64,000 bases of DNA from Bryum argenteum. Lineage: Eukaryota; Streptophyta; Bryopsida; Bryales; Bryaceae. The position numbers were made by a program, and so were the translations under genes. The notes beneath the pieces are model-generated. The model was not told the DNA's origin. It saw only the letters and a program-made list of their open reading frames with translations, and did no database searches. Position 1 is the stretch's first letter. Each line of letters starts with the position of its first letter. The stretch is from the NCBI GenBank assembly GCA_037043015.1, contig CM073323.1, positions 7,440,001 to 7,504,000 on the forward strand, in the 5' to 3' direction. Shown piece by piece: positions 2,815 to 59,239 of the stretch.

Positions 2815-3877
2815 TGGCTCACGCATTATCAACAATAAAAAAACTTAAAAATTTGGAGGAGCTTGAAATCTTTATTCCAAACAGTAACCTATAGTTGAGA
2901 TTTTACCGATCATCTTTAAGAATTTGGAAGTTTACAAAGTGACTTGTTTAGTTTAGAAGTAATTTCAAATTTGCTACCCCTTGGACCTTTAGGGTTTAAT
3001 GCAACATACTTGCACTTTAAACAACCCGACAAGGTATGAGAAACAAATACAAATATGACATCAAGGTATGAGAAACAAATACAAATATGACATCAATGGT
3101 ACATGGTACCCAATAAAACATCCGTGATAGATAATACAATCCCATGATTAAAGGTCAATTCAACAAGGTAGTCAAGAAGGAATCATTAACAAATACCAAA
3201 ATCAAGTGAATGAAGTAGGCAGTTTTAAAAAAAATCCCACTATAGAGACACAATATTCATAAAGTTATGATTATATTTCAATTAAAATTATTCCAAAGCC
3301 ACCAATGATCATGTCACATCAACTTCTAAGTGATATAACTCATTTATACAGAAACGAGCACTTTTTGAAAATTCTTTACCTTATAATGGTAAAACATGCC
3401 CCATGTTTAAAAACTAAAAAACAAGATTTGTTACACACTGCATGTCATCTATTCAAACTTCATTGTATGGGTCTGCAGTTTTTACTACACTAAATAGACT
3501 TCAATTGGAACCTACATGAAGTCATTTCATCCATAACAGACTTTGGATGAAGAAGTTTGGCTCTTCAAACTAACCACCCTTCATCCACAATGTCGTTTTT
3601 CGACCTTCGGCATGTTTAGGAGTTAAGAAGATGGTCATTATAATATACAACAAAATGAAATATCTCAATCAATGTTTGTTTGCATTGCTCTAGCGTTCAG
3701 TTACGAAGATTTCAATATCACGTATACAATTCATACTCTAAACCAAATAGTAAGAACTATACACTATTATAATACCTTTACTGACAAATGACGTAAACAC
3801 CTGCCGCAGAAATCCCCATTCATTTGGTCGGCGGGTTATGGCCCATAATCACTAGTTACGGGGTGTTTCCCTCACAA

Positions 3878-9800: not shown

Positions 9801-12800
9801 ACATGGCTTGGTGCTGCTAGTGTGTTATACATAGGCAGGAAATTTGTACCAATCAATCGGCCCCGTCCCATCTACCTGAGACAAGTGTGACTATTCTTGT
9901 GGGAAGTGGTTTACGCCATTTCTCACGCCCTCCTCCTTTTATTGTTACATTATTGTGGGGATTGTTTGGTTATTCTCAATTTTCCTTTTGTGTAAAATAA
10001 TTGATCCGGCGTGTTGAATGGCGATGGTATTTATTTCATGGAATGTGCGTTTTATGCATGTTTCTGATAAGTTAAATTTTTTTGCAAGAAGTTTCATTGA
10101 TGGTTTGTGTGTTGTGCCTCTAGCACCTGCTGTGATGACTATGAGGGGGTCTACTTTCCATCCTATATTACGGAGTTTATCAAGAAGTGGTTGATATTTG
10201 TCGGTTTTGTTATTAATTGTTTCTTGAGAGAATCTATCGTTACAGTATGTGAATTCTATAAATTGAAGTGTGAGGTTGTCTGTTGGGTGTGGTGGTGGGT
10301 CGTTTTTGTGTGGTAGACCCTTAACGCAGAGTACATCTGGTTTGAATCTAGCATTGCAATGACATCTTTGTTGTGTACATTCGCATTGTAATAGCCATGG
10401 AGGGACCGTATTTTCTTGGGGGTTGTTATTAAATGTGCCTGCGTTCATGAGGATATAGCAACGTGATTTTTGTGATGAGAGAATTAATTTTCTTAGTTCC
10501 CATACGGCTTTGTTATGTCTCTTGATTCTAATGGCGTGTATGTGGTGGTGACCACATTTAAGTAGTGCGTGTAACCATGTGTCGGCGTCCATGGAGTTAC
10601 ATATAGAGCAAGTTATTGATGGGAATCGTTCTCTACCAAAGAATAGTTGTTTCCTTGCGTTCCCCATGTATTGGCCGGTGCGTAGCTTTAGAATAATTGT
10701 TTTTTGGGAGTCCGTAATTATGGGGTTTAGCCAATACGCATTTGATAATTCATTGTCAATATCCGGGTTTGTTGTCCATTTGTTGATGTTGGGGAATTGG
10801 TCAGCGAGTATTATAAGGTTGTTGTCGTAGTCTTGTTTGTGTATGTATGTTTGAAGGCATCTGACCGGGCCCTTGTCTGGGCGAGTTCGAGGTCCTGGCC
10901 ATTTATATTTCTGGTAGTAGAATGGTGTGGTGTGTGCGAATTCGTGGGGTTTTGTGGCTACCGCATATCGTTTGGTGGCGCCGGTTTTCGCAAGTTTGTC
11001 TGTTTGCTCGTTGCCAGTGATGTTAATATGCGCTTTAACTTTGTGGAATATAGTAGGTTGAGTACGGTTTTGTAATATCTCAACCATTTCTGTTAGGATG
11101 GTTTTGTCAGGATGGTTGTGTTGTGTGGATGGGTGTAATATGTGAGCATTTAGATTATATAGGCAGTTTATGCAATCCGTGAAGATATAAGCCGGTTCAT
11201 TTGGGTATTTGGTGTTGATTAAGTGTAGGGTTGTATGTATAGCCATTAATTCGGCACGAAAGCATGTTTGAAGGCCAGAAAGTCTTTCTGATATATGCAT
11301 GTCAGGTTTTGTAGGATTGTAGATGCCGTATCCAGCTTTTTCTTTTTTCCAATGTCCATCCTCGGCTTTTTTAGGTGGTATGAAAGAGCCGTCCGTATAG
11401 TAGCTGTATTGTGGTTGGAATTTTAGAGTAGGGTTGATTTCGAACGTTGGCAGAGGGGGTATACATGTGGGTTCGGAGTTTGAGTTTGTATATGAGGGGT
11501 ATAGAACTTTATTCCATTTTTTATTTTTATTGACGATAGTGTTGTATGGGGTTGGTGGAGCTTGTTGTATATAGTAGTGCGGGATTGCCATGGCCTCAAT
11601 TGCATTTTTAATGTTGTTAATTTGTTCTAATGTACCAACGTGATTGTTTTGATGGTGTATGCACATGATGGATATTGCAAGTGGTTCGGTTGTTGGTTTG
11701 TATTTTTGTGGGGGTGCTGGGATTTTGTATGTGATGGAGTCTGCGGTGAAATGGGTTATTATATGTGTATCCGGGAAAGGTCCAATATACGGGGTTGGGT
11801 TTTGGTACCAGTTTGGGTCGGGGGGAACTATTATGGTGATTGTATTTGGGTCGTGTTTGGCCGCTAATCTCGCCCAGTGGATGGCTTGTTGGGTTGTTTC
11901 TGGATTATGGGTATGCGCATATCCTATGACTGTCCATTTATATTCAAAAGCGTTGCCACGAGATCCAAAGATTTTGTCTCGGGAGAAAGGGGAGAATATT
12001 CTGTTATTTTGGTGGAGCATGTAATTGGTGATGAAAAATATGAGTGATTGATTTGGAGGTTAGTGGTGATATGATCGAGAATGTTTGTTGGAAGGGTGTG
12101 GTGGGGTGTTAGTTTCGGGTTTTTTTTGGAGGATTGAGCTTTATATCTTAGATATAGCCATATTATTTCTGTTTCGAATGTTTGTGTATATGGCATTAGC
12201 CTGTGTGAGTTGTTTGAGTATTTATTAAATTGTTGCCATAGCCACTGTAATCTGTTTATGGGTATGGTGGTGAGGTATCGGCCATTGTCTTCGTATAGGT
12301 CAGCTGATTTGTTATTTATTTGTATGGTGGTTTTGTTAGTAATAATGTCTCTTTTTGGATTACATTCTGCAAAGTGTATTTGCGTAAGTGGGGTAATTAA
12401 TGGTGGTGGTATGAACCTGGTGTCCTTGAGTTGTGCTTGTATGAAGTGAGTGTTGATCAAGTTTCGATAGTGATCATGTTGTGATTTAGTGTAATAATCC
12501 TTAAGTAGTTGAATATTGTGTGAAATGACTGTTGGATAATTTAGGGGAAATAGGTCTCTCTGTTGGAACCATTTATGGTATGTGGTGCTATTGTGGTGCC
12601 ATTTGCATAGGTATGTGTTGTGGGTATTAGGTATTTTGTATTTGTCTTTTGTAGTTACTGTTTTGTGATTTAATATTGTAGTTATGGGATATTCAAGAGG
12701 GTTGTTTTTAATGTTAGGTGGTGGGCTTATTTGGTGAGTATCTTGGTGGGTAGTAGGTTGTGGTCGGGTGTTTACATGTCTTGGGAGTAAGTCAAAAATG

Positions 12801-15800
12801 TCTGAGATATATATTGGTTTGAGTGTGCGGGCCGGTGGGTGTTGGGTGCAGGTGTTAGGGCAGTTCGGGTTGCATTTAGTTTGGCAAAATAGTTTTTCAG
12901 CTATTTCTAGCGCATTTTTCTCAAGTTTAGTTGGTGTTTTATAGTAGGTTGCAAAGTCGGTTGGTGACATGAGGTTCGTACCGTTTGGGAGAGAGATGTG
13001 TTTGATTTTGTAGATATTGTGTATTAAAAGCTTGTGTAAGAGCTTGATTGATAGTTCCGGGTTGAGGTGAGGAAGTTCGGTTGTGGCTTGTTCTAACCAC
13101 TCTCGTTCTAGTTCGGTTTTGTGTAATTGGAAGTCATCATTGGTACTTTTTAGATGTATACCTCCATCTTGTTTGAGAAGAAATAGTGTTCTTGATATGG
13201 GAGAGTTTATACAGTCGGAGGCTTTTAATCTGGGAATGTTTTCAGCGCCACCGTGTTTTGAAGTTATGTGTTGAATAAGGCCTTTGTAAATATTGCCTAG
13301 TCTTCCTTGATCATTAAGTGCATTTCTAAGTTGTTCGCCGATACATCTTAGATATGCGTTTTTTAGTGAGAATGCTTGAAGACCAAAGAGTTTGTGGGGA
13401 AGTTGGGTAATCACGTTCATTGCATTTTGGAAGGCCACGATTGTTTTTGGATTCCTATAATTTTTTTGTCAAGTTTTTGATGGTTGAAAGTGAGAATGGG
13501 ACTCGCATAGAAGCTATATGCAATCCCCGCTCGATGATTGTATCAACCATGTTGATTTTTTGTTTAATTGTTGCGGGGCATTTTGCGAGTTGTTTACATT
13601 GGTCGGTGAGTTTGTTTGTCGCGATGTGTGTTTGGATTTTCCATTTTAGAGAGGGTACCATGTGGATACCAAGGTAGACATAAGGTTCGTTTTGGTGAAG
13701 GATAGGAATTGGTTGGTTTACGTAGGTGATGTGGTGTTGCTCTATTTTTCCTTGAATTTATCGGGCTTTATTTTGGATTTATTTGGATGACTTGTAATAG
13801 CACATTTTTTATACAACCGAGGTCCATACTCGCCCATTCACAAAATTTATCTATTTTGTATATTTGAGTTTGTATGGATTGGAGGGTGTTTGCAAGTCCT
13901 GCTAAATCGTCTGCGTATGCAGCAGCTGTAATGTTTATTTTCGATGTACCAAATGTATAGCCATTATTCCCTCTTTGTAGCCATCTTAGTAGTGGTTCTA
14001 GAAATATGAGAAATAGGTAGGGGCTTAATGTGTCGCCTTGAATGGTTCCTCTTTGTATTGGAATTGGTTCTGTCTTGCCAAAATATTCGCCTGTGAATAT
14101 TGTAGAAGAGTTTGCGTATATGTTACCAATTAGCGTAACTGCGTCTAAAGGGTAACCAAGGTCTTTCATTACTGCGAGTAGTCGAGCATGGTCTAGGGAA
14201 CGGAATGCGTTTTTAAAATCTATATATAGTATATGGATGTCTTGATTTGTGAGTTTTGCGTCCTCTAATGCTGCAGTGATGAGTTGTATTTGTCTGGCTG
14301 TGCTTCTTTCTGCTCGGAAGCCTTCTTGGCTGTCATGTAGAATTTGGTGATGTTCGCCGTATGTTGAAAGTATAAGTGTGAAAGTACTCGTGAAGAGTTT
14401 GTAGATTGTATTGGCTAGCGCTATAGGCCTGTGGTTTGGTAGTACTGCTGGATTGCCCTTTTTGTATAGTAGTATGGTTAGGCTTAGTTTCCATGATGCT
14501 GGTATTTGACGTTGTTTGTAGCAGTGGTGAAAAAACATGGATAGTAGTTTATGAAAGTTGTCGGGCATGTTTTTTAGAATGGAGTTAGGGATTCTGTCCG
14601 GTCCTGGTGCTTTATTATTGGATAATTGTTTTAAACATTGGGCATAAATTTCATTGTTGAAGTATTTATGTAAGGGGGTTTGTGGATAACCTCTTTTGTC
14701 TATTACAAAGCCGTCTAAATCGTGCCATGGGTATTGTCTCACGCTACATGTGCATAGTGTTGGGTGTTGGAGTTGGTGATAACATGTTGGGACTGTGGGC
14801 CTATTAGTTTGTGATTGTTGTGTGTGTATTTCAATTGCGATGTCTTTTGGGTTGGTTAAGAGGTTGTTATATCTATCTATGATGCAGTCAAGTGGTGGGG
14901 TATCTTGATATTTAAAGACTTTTTTGTTTATTTTTTTTGGACTTTTGTCGTATAATTGCCTATATTTCGTGATGGCTTTTTTAATGCATGCTTGAGTGAA
15001 TTTTGTAGTGATTTTTTGTGCTTGTTTTTTTGATGATTTTGCTCTTTCTGCTAGAGTTTGGATCCATTCTTGTGGATTGTTGGTTTGTAGTGGAGGTGGT
15101 GGAATGTCTGTGTGTGTATGTTTGCTTAGTTCTTCTATTATGGGGTGTTGCTGCCAGTTGGGGGTGTTTTTTGTACTATATATAGCCTTACGAATTAGAT
15201 GGTATGTGGTTAGGTGTTTTTTCCATTGTTTTTGGAGTTTTCTTGGTAGAAATCCTCCTTGTTCAGATGTGCGTGGTGTTAGTGTAGGCAAGGGTGGTGC
15301 GCTGCAGGTGTTTTCAATTAACTTAGATGTTTTTTGAATTAAGTGGTCTAGTTTTTCGCATGCCGTTTGCCATTGTGTATTTGTTAATTGAGTATTTGAG
15401 AGAAGAGAGGTGAGGTTATTGATTTCTTTTGAGTTATCTTCATAGAATATTGTTTTGAATTTATCAAGGTTTTCTTGTGGAATAGGATTTAAAATTCTTA
15501 TCGGTTTAGATGTTGGTTCTTGTGGGGGTCTTGCAAGCAGTGTGTTTGGAGGTATTTGAAGGGTGATTGAAGAATGATCTGAGTTGAGGTTATGTTCTGT
15601 AATAGTTAGCGATGTGTATAAATTGTTATCGGGGGTATTTATGAAAAATCCATCTATTAGGTTGGTTTCGCTATAATTTTGTCCTCCTTGTCTCGAATAT
15701 ACAGTGTTTGTTGGTATATATGTTAGTTGTAGGGAATTTGTGAATGCTCTCCAATCCCTGTCTTCTAATTGCGGTGGAGTTGTGTTTAATTCGTGTCGAC

Positions 15801-16949
15801 GACCTGTGAGAGCTATGTCTCTATTAAAATCCCCACATAATATTTGAATGTGGTTAGGGTGTGCTGTAATTTGTTGTGTTATTTGTTGTTGTATTGTTTC
15901 TAAGTAAGGGGTGTCTTCCGGATGTGACGGCATGTACATGTGTATAAGTAACCAAGGTTGTAGGGATTCATTTTTTTTTTTATTATTTGTAAATATGGTG
16001 ATATTGCGGCGGGGGTTGGGATTTTGGTAACATTACCTGGGTATGTGTATTTGTTGTTTATAAATAACAAGAGGCCTCCTCTTGTAGGTGTATATTCCAT
16101 TCGTTGTTGCATGCATCGTGTTAGTGTGTGTGTATTGTTGAAGATCATTTTGTGATTAGGGAATAAATTTTGAAGATATTTGGTAGATTTTGTAGCAGTT
16201 AGTTTAGTTTCTTGTATTGCAATGATTGCCGGGCTTGTAGGGGTGTTAGTAATTAGTTCATGTAAATTTGGGAGAGCGGTGTTGAGTGATGAGGCATTCC
16301 AAGTGACTATATGCGTTTTATGGTTCGTGGTGATTGGTGTTGTATTTTGTGTGGGGGGCATTTCTGGTGCTGGAGGTGGATGAGAATATTCGGCAAGGGG
16401 TTCATTGATTTTTAGGGCTTCTACAAGTAGGTTATCGGGTAAAAATGGGAATTCGTTTTTTAATTGTTCTGGGTTGGGTGGTATGTTGTTTTGTTGAATG
16501 AATTCGTATATTTGTTTGTGTATGGTGGTGGGGGGGTTTATAAGGTTAGAATTATCGTTTTTGAATTGTATGTATGGGTGTGTGTTGTTGAGATGTCTTT
16601 CTGGCGGGTTTTGAAGTGTGGCCATTTCATTAAGTAATATAGTGGTCCAATTTGGATTAGTGGGATGTTCGAGGATGCGGTTGCATGTTTCTGGTGATGG
16701 GTTTATTGTTGTGATAAGAGCGTATAATATGCGTGGTGCTGGGTGATGAGAGTTTTCCCGGACGTAGTTTGTGAGATGTGGATATTTTATTTGTGCTTCT
16801 GGATGTTCTGAGTGAGTATTTATGAGACATGGCGCAAATTGTGCTGATAAGTGTTGGTATTCAGGGTGTAGTCGAATTGTGCATGGTATGAAGTAGTTTT
16901 TGCATCTTCGTTTATGGACGGATGGGTGTGTTCTGAGTACATTTGGCAT

Positions 16950-54601: not shown

Positions 54602-54658
54602 GTCAAATTTCGCTGAAGAAGTGAAACTAGATAGGGAACAAGCAAAAAGTACTGTACA

Positions 54659-55594
54659 GTCCCCTCTAGATGATTTACGAATTCAGCATTCAAGGACAAT
54701 TTTCCTATCAACTTTGAACATTGCTTGTGCACTCAAAAATGATCCGATTTCAAAACCGTGAAGTGCGTTGCAACAACAATGAAGACTACTACATCTTTGA
54801 CATGATTGCACACATTCGACAATGAAAGAAATATAAACGAGTAGAAATACTTCATACACTATCGACAAACAAGTGTTACCATTCTTTGCTTCAATTTGAA
54901 TGTTCATTCTAGCTTGCAAATTTGAATTGAGCTTGCAATTTTGTTCTTTAGATATTGTAGATCATTCTAATGCATAATTTGTATCACTTCTGCTTCATGC
55001 TACAATCTGGAGCGGAGTCTTAAATATTCTTGATATTTAAAGAATTTCTGTCAAAGCTTGTAAAAGCCCTTCCCACTCCTCAACAATGTTGCACTAGAAA
55101 GTAAAGGGTGGTGCGTGAGACATTGAGTAATATCTCTCAAGAATTGATTACTAAGCTCAGATATGTCTGTTATTCTTGCCGATTTTAAGGAATGACTTAT
55201 CAATCTACTATAAATACTATGTAATACCTTTACAAAAATTTCTCCACACCACAACACGAGAGAAAGAGATACAAATCATGCATCACAAATAAGCTATAGT
55301 ATCTAAAGAACTAAGTTCTAAGCTCATTTCAAATTTGCAAGTTAGAATGAACATTCAAATTGAAGCAAAGAATGGTAATACTTGTTTGTGCATAGTGTGT
55401 GAAGTATTTGTAATTTTTTTATTCCTTTCGTTGATGAAAGTGTACAATTGTATTGAAAATGTAGTAATCTTCATTGTGGTTGCGACGCACTTTACGGTTT
55501 TGAAATCCGATCATTTTTGAGTGCGCAAGCAATGTTCAAAGTTAGTGGAGAAACTATCCATGACTGCTGAATTCGTAAATCATTTGGAGGGGAC
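54659..55594. mobile_element. foldback DNA element A, 936 bp
   Basis: Non-coding element with inverted terminal arms of about 310 bp (ends GTCCCCTC and GAGGGGAC) around a central part of about 300 bp. It is flanked by TGTACA at 54653-54658 and 55595-55600. It begins only about 57 bases after the esterase stop codon, so it lies in that gene's 3' UTR or just beyond. Element B is the same family, same length, in the opposite orientation. Confidence 0.88.
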
Positions 55595-55600
55595 TGTACA

Positions 55601-56536
55601 GTACCCTCCAGATGATTTACGAATTCAGCACTGAGGGACAGTTTTTCATCAACTTTGAACATTGCTTGTGCACTCAAAAATGATCCGATTTCAAAACCGT
55701 AAAGTGGGTTGCAACCGCAATGAAGACTACTACCTCTCCAATACTATTGTACACATTCATCAATGAAAGGAATATAAACGATTAGAAATACTTCATACAC
55801 TATCGACAAATAAGTGTTACCATTCTTTGCTCCAATTCGAATGTTCATTCAAGCTTGCAAATTTGAAATAAGCTTGCAAGTTTGTTCTTTAGATAGTGTA
55901 GCTCATTTGTAATGCATGATTTGTATCTCTTCCTCTCGTGTTGTGGTGTGGAGCAATTTTATTAAAGGTAGTACATAGTATTTATAGTATATTGATAAGT
56001 CATTCCTTAAAATTGGCAAGAATAACAAACATATCTGAGCTTGGTAATCAATTCATGAGAGATATCACTCAATGTCTCATGCACCACCCTTTACTTTCTA
56101 GTGCAACATTGTTGAGAAGTGGGAAGGGCTTTTACAAGCTTTGACAGAAATTCTTTAAATATCAAGAATATTTAAGACTCCGCTCCAGATTGTAGTATGA
56201 AGTAGAAGTGATACAAATCATGCATTAGAACAATCCACAATATGTAAAGAACAAAATTGCAAGCTCATTTCAAATTTGCAAGCTAGAATGAACATTCAAA
56301 TTGAAGCAAAGAATGGTAACACTTGTTTGTCGATAGTGTATGAAGTATTTCTAATCATTTATAATCCTTTCATTGTCGAATGTGTGCCATCATGTCAAAG
56401 ATGTAGTAGTCTTCATTGTGGTTGCAACGCACTTCACGGTTTTGAAATTGGATCATTTTTGAGTGCACAAGCAATGTTCAAAGTTGATAGGAAAATTGTC
56501 CTTGAATGCTGAATTCGTGAATCATCTGGAGGAGAC
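55601..56536. mobile_element. foldback DNA element B, 936 bp
   Basis: Same family and length as element A but with the central part inverted. Ends GTACCCTCCAGATG and CATCTGGAGGAGAC. It shares the TGTACA at 55595-55600 with element A and has TGTACA at 56537-56542 on its right. Confidence 0.88.
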
Positions 56537-56542
56537 TGTACA

Positions 56543-57178
56543 ATAGGGTGACATTCAAATTGGCCGTTTCTATGTTTTGCAATCCCCTCCTCTCGGATTC
56601 TATGTTTTGCAATCCCCTACTGTACTTTTTTGTGTACATCTTTTGGCTTTGAAATTTATCTCATATGTTACCAGCGTAGAGATGATCTTGTGCCAAAAAT
56701 TTCACCATGTATCAACAAAAACTCAATCCTAAGGAGGGCGTCAAAGTTGGAAGTAGTAAAATGGTTTTCCCCTTTGTTTCTCAAAACTACACATGTTGAT
56801 AGATTTGGAATATTATTTTTTGTATGGGTCTTTTGGACTTGAAATTTTCCACACATGCAAACAACATAAAAATGTTTTTGCTCCAAAAATTTCATGGGCA
56901 AAAAAAAATTTCCTCAATTCTTGGGAGGGTGTCAAAGTTGGCAGCTGTGACACTTTTCTCACAACTATCCCATGTTGGTAGATCTTGCATAAGTTTTTTT
57001 GTATAAGTCTCCTGGACTTGAAATTTGGTATGCATGTTTTCAACATAAAGATGATGCTGTCCCCAAATTTTCATGGTAAAATAAAAATTTCTCAGCTTTG
57101 GGGAGGGTGTCAAAGTTGGCAGCAGTGTAGGACACTATCCCTGGAACTACTAAACGGCCAATTTGATTGTCACCCTAT
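56543..57178. mobile_element. inverted-repeat element C, 636 bp, with tandem-repeat core
   Basis: Different family from A, B and D. Terminal inverted repeat of about 26 bases (ATAGGGTGACATTCAAATTG and on through GCCGTTT). The interior is three tandem units of about 180-190 bp, marked by GTCAAAGTTGG at 56740, 56931 and 57109 and by GACTTGAAATTT. It is flanked on both sides by TGTACA (56537-56542 and 57179-57184). Confidence 0.82.
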
Positions 57179-57184
57179 TGTACA

Positions 57185-58116
57185 GTCGGGTACAGAAATA
57201 ATTCGAACTGCATTTGAAGGCAGTTTCTGAAAAAACTTCGAAATGTGCCTATATATTCAAAAATGATCGGAATTGCAATCCGTAAAAGGCGTTGGAACCA
57301 CGTCAGAGTGTTTTACACTATCATTGCAAAAAATTGCTTCTTTTTTGTAAATTTTTTTTAAAGAACTAAAACTCTACATGTTCCATCCACAATTGACCAT
57401 TGTCGCTTTGTGCTTCAATTACAATGTTCATTTTCAGATGCAAAATTGATATGAGTGCCATAAGTTGTTCTTTAGCTACTTGAGCTCAATGTTGAATGTT
57501 CAAAAATACTTGCTCCCTCTAAACTTCTGAGTTGGAGTAGTTTTGTGATAAGTTTCCAATCAACACTTAAGGTGTGAAATTGAACTTTGATTTAAACTCG
57601 ACGAGAATGCTAAAAGAATTTGAGTTTGGCAATGAGCTTTTGAAAGTAATCACACTAACTTTATCAAACCATCCTTTAAGTCCTTGTAGGACATTCTAGT
57701 GGTGTGAATGGCTTCACAAAGTTTTGAGAAAAATTGACTAGTCATAAGCACATTCTAAGACATTCCTCCTACCCAAGAAAAAAACTAGGAACATTTCAAT
57801 GATTCAATAAGCATGAGCTCAAGTAGCTAAAGAACAACTTATGGCACTCATATCAATTTTGCAACTGAAAATGAACATTGTAATTGAAGCACAAAGCGAC
57901 AATGGTCAATTGTGGATGGAACATGTAGAGTTTCAGTTCTTTGAAAAATTAAACAAAAAAGAAGCAATTTTTTGCAGTGATAGTGTAAAACACTCTGATG
58001 TGGTTCCAACGCCTTTTACGGATTGCAATTCCGATCATTTTTGAGTATATAGGCACATTTCGAAGTTTTTTCAAAAACTGCCTTCAAATGCAGTTCGAAT
58101 TATTTCTGTACCCGAC
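57185..58116. mobile_element. foldback DNA element D, 932 bp
   Basis: Inverted arms of about 300 bp, ends GTCGGGTACAGAAATAATTC and its complement. Distantly related to A and B: the arm segments with ATGATCCGATTTC and ATGATCGGAATTG occupy the same position, and both have TTGTTCTTTAG at the inner arm edge. It is flanked by TGTACA at 57179-57184 and 58117-58122. A solo end-like sequence (TTTACAGTCGGGCGCAG) occurs at about 58175. Confidence 0.88.
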
Positions 58117-59239
58117 TGTACATTGAAACCAAGGAGGCAATTTTGAAGAATGAAACCCATGCGGAAGTCTCTAGTTTACAGTCGGGCGCAGCAATTGTAG
58201 CAATTCCATGAATACAAAATCTAAAACTAAGCTCCTGAGCGTCATTCATTCTCTTAAGGGCCGGTTTACACTACGATGGAGAAGGCCTCCAGTCCGTCAA
58301 GAATGCTTAGCCAAGACATGGTTATATGAGGCAAATGGTGAATGCGTCGGAGAAGAATTAAATGCAATTAAAATTTCTTGAGTCTTGACGGGTTGTAGTC
58401 TAAACACCTAGAGGAGAAGTTTAGCGGTGATGTCCACCGCAGAAGTCCACCGGTGAAGAGAAGCTCACCTAATGGTGAAGATTTTTTGTGATACAAAATC
58501 ATAATTCCCTACATTCACATTGTATGAAAATACATCAACAAATCTTTCCTTTCATAAAAATCAATATGCATAAGACAAAATGAGTAAACTTTAAATTAAA
58601 TTTAATAATCAATTTGCGCCGTAGACTAATAATTTCTATGGTTCAGTTTAACATTAGATAGTATAAACACATAATATGGTCATTTTATGTTCAATGTCAT
58701 TCAAAAATAGTAATGCAAAGCTTGGTTTTGAAACTTGTTATTCTTTGAGGCAGTTGATGATGCGGATTGAATGGTAGTATCCGGTTGAATTTCATCTTCA
58801 TTAGCATTTGTTGAGTTTTCTTGTCCTCACACACTAGTGTTGTCCACTCACGTGTTTCATAACGAAACTGGCTTGATGATCAATCGAATTATAAAACTTA
58901 CATTCATGGTGGTCATTTCATGTAATCAAGTTAGCAAGTTTGTCCTCCTTGTAATGTTGAAAACTATCTCAAATTTCTTTCGACATACCTTGACCGTATG
59001 TGAAAATCCAAGAATTGTCACTATCATTTGTGCTTAAAGTCAAACCCATATATCAACACCTAATTAATATCAATTTTTATATCTCACTTGCTCATGTGCA
59101 CGAGAAGATGATAAAATGCCAAAAAAATGAGCTCTAAGCCTTCAAAATGGCTTCGAAAAATTTATTACATCATGTGGAGCTAGAGTAGCAAGTGTATATC
59201 AACACTAATGTGAGCTGAAGACAAGGAAAATGTGGGGAT

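Follow-up and report, generated by a model that had tools for sequence, protein, structure and literature searches.

A chain of MITE-like elements joined at TGTACA and related Tc1-like transposons in the moss Bryum argenteum

PpTc1 and PpTc2 of the moss Physcomitrella patens are among the closest known counterparts of the elements considered here. These Tc1-like elements encode a DD34E transposase of 338 aa, carry 33-bp inverted repeats with CAGT...ACTG ends and, in keeping with their superfamily, duplicate TA (Liu and Yang 2014, PMC4054914). AT-rich simple repeats were found around 14 of 42 empty PpTc1 sites, and the available portions of that account mention neither a TGTACA target nor chains of elements (PMC4054914). 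The accessible excerpts of two further reports describe ZB, Sleeping Beauty and Bari as preferring ATATATAT or AT-rich DNA, the preference for ATATATAT being perhaps common to Tc1-like elements (PMC7913693, PMC4877112).

The locus described here, from the moss Bryum argenteum, lies in a window of 64,000 nucleotides, the whole stretch of DNA that was analysed (contig CM073323.1), and consists of four inverted-repeat elements, A to D, placed end to end (Table 1). Sequence comparison makes it very probable that these are MITE-like copies of Tc1-like DD34E elements, whose transposases would insert mostly at TGTACA and duplicate its central TA. The elements resemble PpTc1 and PpTc2 in their moss host, in the DD34E transposases to which they trace, in the CAGT...ACTG termini of A, B and D, in the probable TA duplication and in the 33-bp inverted repeats present at several of the transposase loci described below; they differ in the CAAT ends of C and in their arms, which reach ~340 bp in A and ~560 bp in long C elements. 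With Sleeping Beauty, ZB and Bari they share the superfamily, a palindromic preference centred on TA and, for Sleeping Beauty, a match to the catalytic domain; however, the preference reported there is for ATATATAT or AT-rich DNA, whereas TG-TA-CA is nearly obligatory here. The mode of insertion is thus known from Tc1-like elements and MITEs, but the near-obligate, GC-containing hexamer target is new, because reported Tc1-like elements prefer ATATATAT. No report of TGTACA as a transposon target was found in the literature searched, which comprised mostly papers readable without subscription.

Partial parallels also exist among other MITEs. Stowaway elements resemble the present ones in being short plant MITEs that belong to the Tc1/mariner superfamily and duplicate TA; they differ in their ends and in being driven by DD39D mariner-like transposases. 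PIF/Harbinger elements and Tourist MITEs belong to another superfamily with a 3-bp duplication, yet they likewise set a short duplication within a longer, fixed palindromic target and form multimers in which elements are stacked in each other's target; none of the papers listed by a literature search gave that motif.

Within the chain, TGTACA stands exactly at all five borders, with only one copy between each pair of neighbours, and the lengths between these borders are 936 (A), 936 (B), 636 (C) and 932 bp (D), so that the arrangement put forward in a preliminary description of this DNA was confirmed at every site. A and B belong to one family in opposite orientation (92% identity), with inverted arms of ~338 bp that are 84% identical in A and 88% identical in B. 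The arms of C span 33 bp (97% identical) and those of D 310 bp (96% identical). D has its own ends and a distant similarity to A in stretches within the arms, and the ends of C are unlike those of A/B and D. Three further TGTACA copies, at 55441, 55748 and 56633, are internal to elements and do not mark borders. The window holds 30 TGTACA in all against 18.3 expected, with 30 attained in 1 of 100 shuffles, and a chance origin of the border hexamers is made untenable by the genome-wide flank counts given below. Upstream, the last part of a SASA carbohydrate esterase domain is encoded by a reading frame whose stop codon lies ~50 bp before the chain; just past the chain, TACAGTCGGGCGCAGCAATT at window positions 58177-58196 resembles a decayed D-type end. 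Elsewhere in the window (9945-15939, minus strand) lies a LINE-like retroelement, whose frames match RNase H and reverse transcriptase and, weakly and below the cut-off, an endonuclease. The window also contains a cytochrome c1 frame; among the matches listed for it, the named protein with the highest identity is from the moss Ceratodon purpureus (87% over 62% of the query), in keeping with a moss host, and the lowest E-value belongs to an entry from the flowering plant Turnera subulata (75% over 56%).

Table 1. Elements of the chain, their TGTACA borders and the transposase relics within them (window coordinates)
Feature	Position	Strand	Description
Element A incl. both hexamers	54653..55600	.	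948 bp, MITE-like, TACAGTCCCCTC ends
Element B incl. both hexamers	55595..56542	.	A family, reverse orientation
Element C incl. both hexamers	56537..57184	.	Ends TACAATAGGGTGACA; deletion derivative
Element D incl. both hexamers	57179..58122	.	Ends TACAGTCGGGTACAGAAATAATTCGAACTG
Left outer border TGTACA	54653..54658	.	Site observed
A/B common border TGTACA	55595..55600	.	Site observed
B/C common border TGTACA	56537..56542	.	Site observed
C/D common border TGTACA	57179..57184	.	Site observed
Right outer border TGTACA	58117..58122	.	Site observed
Transposase relic in A	55103..55201	-	Residues 148-180 of P0001, internal stops, E = 0.003
Transposase relic in B	55988..56092	+	Residues 146-180 of P0001, internal stops, E = 1e-5
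Transposase relic in D	57591..57683	+	Residues 152-182 of P0001, internal stops, E = 0.001

Searches of a single assembly (258.8 Mb, 25 contigs) with the terminal patterns, at up to 3 mismatches, returned 199 ends of type A, 120 of type C and 312 of type D, and 0 matches for each control. For A and D, copies were taken as the best 40 places by score each (the best-scoring being 90-98% identical to A and 94-98% to D), with queries that included TGTACA at both ends and so carried a slight bias to intact ends. From 210 matched ends, the chance C-type matches L020 and L021 and the out-of-register D-type match L026, which adjoins an A copy, were removed, leaving 207 ends of the A, C and D families; exclusion of 25 joint-like ends and of the left end of L003, which is truncated, brought this to 181. 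The regular expression that selected the joint-like ends also took L007, L012, L050 and L085, which were not shown to adjoin A, C or D, and because it is over-inclusive, the count of chains was drawn from a separate test of adjacency with long flanks. Among the 181 non-chained ends, TG precedes TA in 166 and the full TGTACA is present in 159, against a background in which 22 of 3861 TA dinucleotides fall within TGTACA (window minus chain); insertion into TGTACA, as first proposed from the four elements of the chain, is therefore borne out by copies tabulated genome-wide. The preference is not absolute, since 15 of the 181 ends lack TG before TA and the single readable end of one transposase locus (L176) reads AGTACA.

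That the hexamer belongs to the target is evident from a repeat family in which it stands unoccupied. The sequence TACAAGGTTA-TGTACA-ACCCCAACCT, with one hexamer, occurs at 3079 places (up to 3 mismatches; control 0), of which the 100 listed match without mismatch. This repeat is occupied, with TGTACA on each side, by three D copies (L077/78, L093/94 and L107/108) and a transposase-bearing element (L173); an A copy (L016) lies in the same repeat, also between two TGTACA and with a slightly different left flank, and the left flank of a C copy (L052), of which only the left end was read, is the same as that of L016. The expectation that empty sites carry a single TGTACA thus held when examined with a repeat of the same assembly, in about 3079 copies. 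As an observation in its own right, the repeat with TACAAGGTTATGTACAACCCCAACCT, at ~3079 places, constitutes a standing TGTACA target, and A, D and transposase-bearing elements have inserted into it. The near invariance of the hexamer at both element ends could also be explained if TGTACA were part of those ends and the true duplication lay outside it. The empty repeat copies already contain TGTACA, and directly outside the hexamers of 65 elements there were matching 2-mers in 2, 3-mers in 1, 4-mers in 2 and 6-mers in 0; both TGTACA as element end and an extra duplication beyond it were rejected on these grounds, and such an arrangement is scarcely credible.

At an exact TGTACA target, duplications of 2, 4 and 6 bases give the identical sequence, so that only variant sites can discriminate among them. 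Both ends were read in 89 of 91 elements (L023 and L038 lacked a readable end), and two A copies whose ends are truncated (L157-L160) stayed outside this paired comparison. TGTACA flanks 65 of the 89 on both sides, and 24 have a variant border. The preliminary description had all six bases duplicated, a proposal that this comparison did not support, as in 0 of the 24 was the same variant hexamer repeated on both sides and the variants fall mainly at the outer, target-derived bases. Instead, TA was kept on both sides in 22 of the 24, as would be expected of Tc1-like elements. The exceptions are L003, whose end is truncated, and L004, which has TT on both sides; the borders of the latter (TGTTGA left, TGTTCA right) come nearest to a repeated variant hexamer and fit duplication of TT as well as a longer duplicated stretch that was later altered. 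Over single ends, 18 changes occur at outer and 5 at inner positions (binomial p = 0.011), 16 of the 18 outer changes are transversions (11 T to A, 5 G to C; p = 0.03 versus two thirds), and the variant ACTACA recurs in three copies. The outer-base changes suggest secondary targets rather than decay. A duplication of the four bases GTAC was rejected, as those four bases differ between the sides of L069, L083, L089, L119 and L127.

Most likely, therefore, only the central TA is duplicated and CA...TG belongs to the element, a reading based on the variant borders together with a transposase superfamily that duplicates TA. Each TGTACA would then be composed of TG, the duplicated TA and CA, one half from the element and the other from the target; at the left outer border of the chain, the variant borders and flank counts point to TG as target, TA as duplication and CA as the start of element A. 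Were six bases duplicated after all, the elements would begin with GTCC or ATAGGG, 6-bp staggered cuts would be made at TGTACA by the transposase and the variants would be later mutations. This is an unlikely scheme, and one with some points in its favour: the 65 elements with TGTACA on both sides fit it equally well, L004 carries almost the same variant hexamer twice, and the opposing statistics are moderate (24 variant copies, p 0.01-0.03). It is at odds, however, with the absence of any repeated variant hexamer among the 24, the intact TA of 22, the excess and transversional character of the outer changes, the recurrence of ACTACA, and the TA duplication documented for Tc1-like transposases in the available text of PMC4054914.

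The superfamily assignment derives from the transposases themselves. C-type ends form many inverted pairs ~2.65 kb apart, and the long elements so bounded encode a 336-aa protein (P0001), whose frame is fully open in several copies. This protein contains the Pfam domains HTH_Tnp_Tc3_2 and DDE_3, matches a Sleeping Beauty chain over the catalytic domain (1.3e-28) and has the triad D148, D238 and E273, in which 34 residues separate D238 from E273 (DD34E). Element C is a derivative of this ~2.69-kb element; although its CAAT ends depart from CAGT...ACTG, its family transposase is DD34E, and in its behaviour C matches a Tc1-like element, the end alone being unusual. The C-family transposase has a 97% identical counterpart among public proteins, P0003, which comes from metagenome-type sources.

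A search of the assembly with P0001 (120 scored of 915 candidates) led to 17 closely inspected transposase loci outside the C family, one originating from the A copies (L012) and the others being L164-L179. Inverted end pairs, whose detection did not require TGTACA, were found in 10 of the 17 (L012, L166-L169, L173-L175, L177 and L178), and TGTACA borders every one of these on both sides; among the 7 one-ended loci, 6 have TGTACA, some having been found via a TGTACA search, and L176 is the remaining one. Together, the C family and the 10 paired-end loci make up ~7 transposase families with 42-59% mutual identity. In the alignment, D, D and E are present in 15 of 18 transposases, with N at the first position in L173 and K at the third in L171 and L179. 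An inverted repeat in L165 was set aside, as it falls within a C-like arm that reaches its end, marked by TGTACA, at 2264-2269.

For A, the search for a transposase-bearing partner with the same ends, recommended at the outset, succeeded. The 2.67-kb element at C9:8715897-8718565 has perfect 33-bp repeats, TGTACA on both sides and ends 97% identical to those of A over 32 bp, and its open 338-aa frame encodes HTH and DDE_3 domains, with D, D and E occupying the triad positions of the alignment; a D-like copy adjoins its left side. Its interior is only 64-66% similar to A over ~355 bp, and for this reason it is a relative of A and not the direct parent. Both long arms of A, and of B, resemble the same 3' end of this partner (L174 1511-1866), which suggests that they are an inverted duplication of one end. 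For D, the nearest candidate driver is L171, in which a D-type right end adjoins a transposase interrupted by two stops; a left end was sought at this locus and not found, and D may have been moved by a transposase of this kind. A, B and D each retain a transposase relic (Table 1), weak when taken singly, and central in all three and drawn from the same part of the protein (residues 146-182). Ends in common with a transposase-bearing element, the hallmark of a MITE, were found for C and for A/B. The view that the chain combines two unrelated families accordingly holds only in part: the ends of A/B, C and D do differ, but each of the three goes back to Tc1-like transposases within a single genome.

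The chain in the window is not the only one. In the adjacency test, long flanks were available for 60 A ends, of which 10 adjoin a further element of the kinds described here, and for 37 C ends, of which 7 do so; once the joints of the window itself are set aside, the figures are 7/57 and 5/35, or 12/92, one joint being counted from both sides. In eight of the 12 the neighbour shares 78% identity or more with A, C or D, and in 4 it is a more distant relative (71-74%). A crude expectation, with 631 ends distributed over 102,799 equal TGTACA, the genome total, is ~0.6% (~1.2% for either partner), and against the 8/92 observed, joints are several times commoner. The original suggestion that neighbours reuse one another's borders is supported. 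AC directly precedes the hexamer in 43 of the 159 TGTACA flanks versus 1 of 44 for other TGTACA in the window, and an AC-preceded hexamer reads ACTGTACAGT, which is also what two CAGT ends form when joined; some of this AC excess may represent joints with unrecognised families. The excess of joints could be due to local hopping, to families that were not counted or to preferential insertion at ACTGTACAGT. Two D copies also lie end to end at C1:18702531-18704405 with one TA in common, and a further end family, TACAGTCCCCTACA...TTGCTTACGAATTCC, adjoins an A copy (right flank of L006) and ends a transposase locus (L170 2124-2155).

The adjacency of A and B, one family in inverted orientation, and the capacity of recombination between ends to join elements might instead point to segmental duplication or inter-repeat recombination as the source of the chain. 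Such an origin is very improbable: A and B are 92% identical, whereas copies elsewhere reach 98% identity to A, C and D belong to other families, and joints of other combinations are present elsewhere in the genome. The insertions that built the chain thus appear to have been successive. By the proposed mechanism, which is supported by comparisons within one assembly, a transposase would paste its element mostly into the palindrome TGTACA, with duplication of the central TA; with element ends of the form 5'-CA...TG-3', one TGTACA would become two, one per end. Each new site could receive a further element of any family in the group, and repeated landing would generate an end-to-end chain with a single TGTACA between neighbours, whose members would be internally deleted copies of Tc1-like DD34E transposons.

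The transposase itself probably reads the hexamer. Recruitment to TGTACA by a host DNA-binding protein, with no selection by the transposase, would account for the common target of ~7 transposase families that are 42-59% identical. Tethering usually places insertions near a motif and not inside it, whereas the insertions described here lie exactly at the palindrome centre, and guidance by a host factor is improbable. Recognition by the transposase being the preferred reading, it is somewhat more plausible than otherwise that divergent Tc1-like transposases evolved an intrinsic, near-absolute recognition of TGTACA and that joined ends (ACTG-TA-CAGT) are favoured, giving a self-regenerating target and hence chains.

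A 2016 structural study of Mos1 introduced the origin of target specificity in DDE transposases as an unanswered question and, in the portions available, went on to explain TA itself (PMC5481204). A natural group that uses approximately 1 TA in 175 offers a direct comparison for the residues that read bases beyond TA, which is of interest for genome-engineering tools of this kind. For the genome that carries them, TGTACA chains provide a simple route by which MITEs pile on each other rather than into genes.
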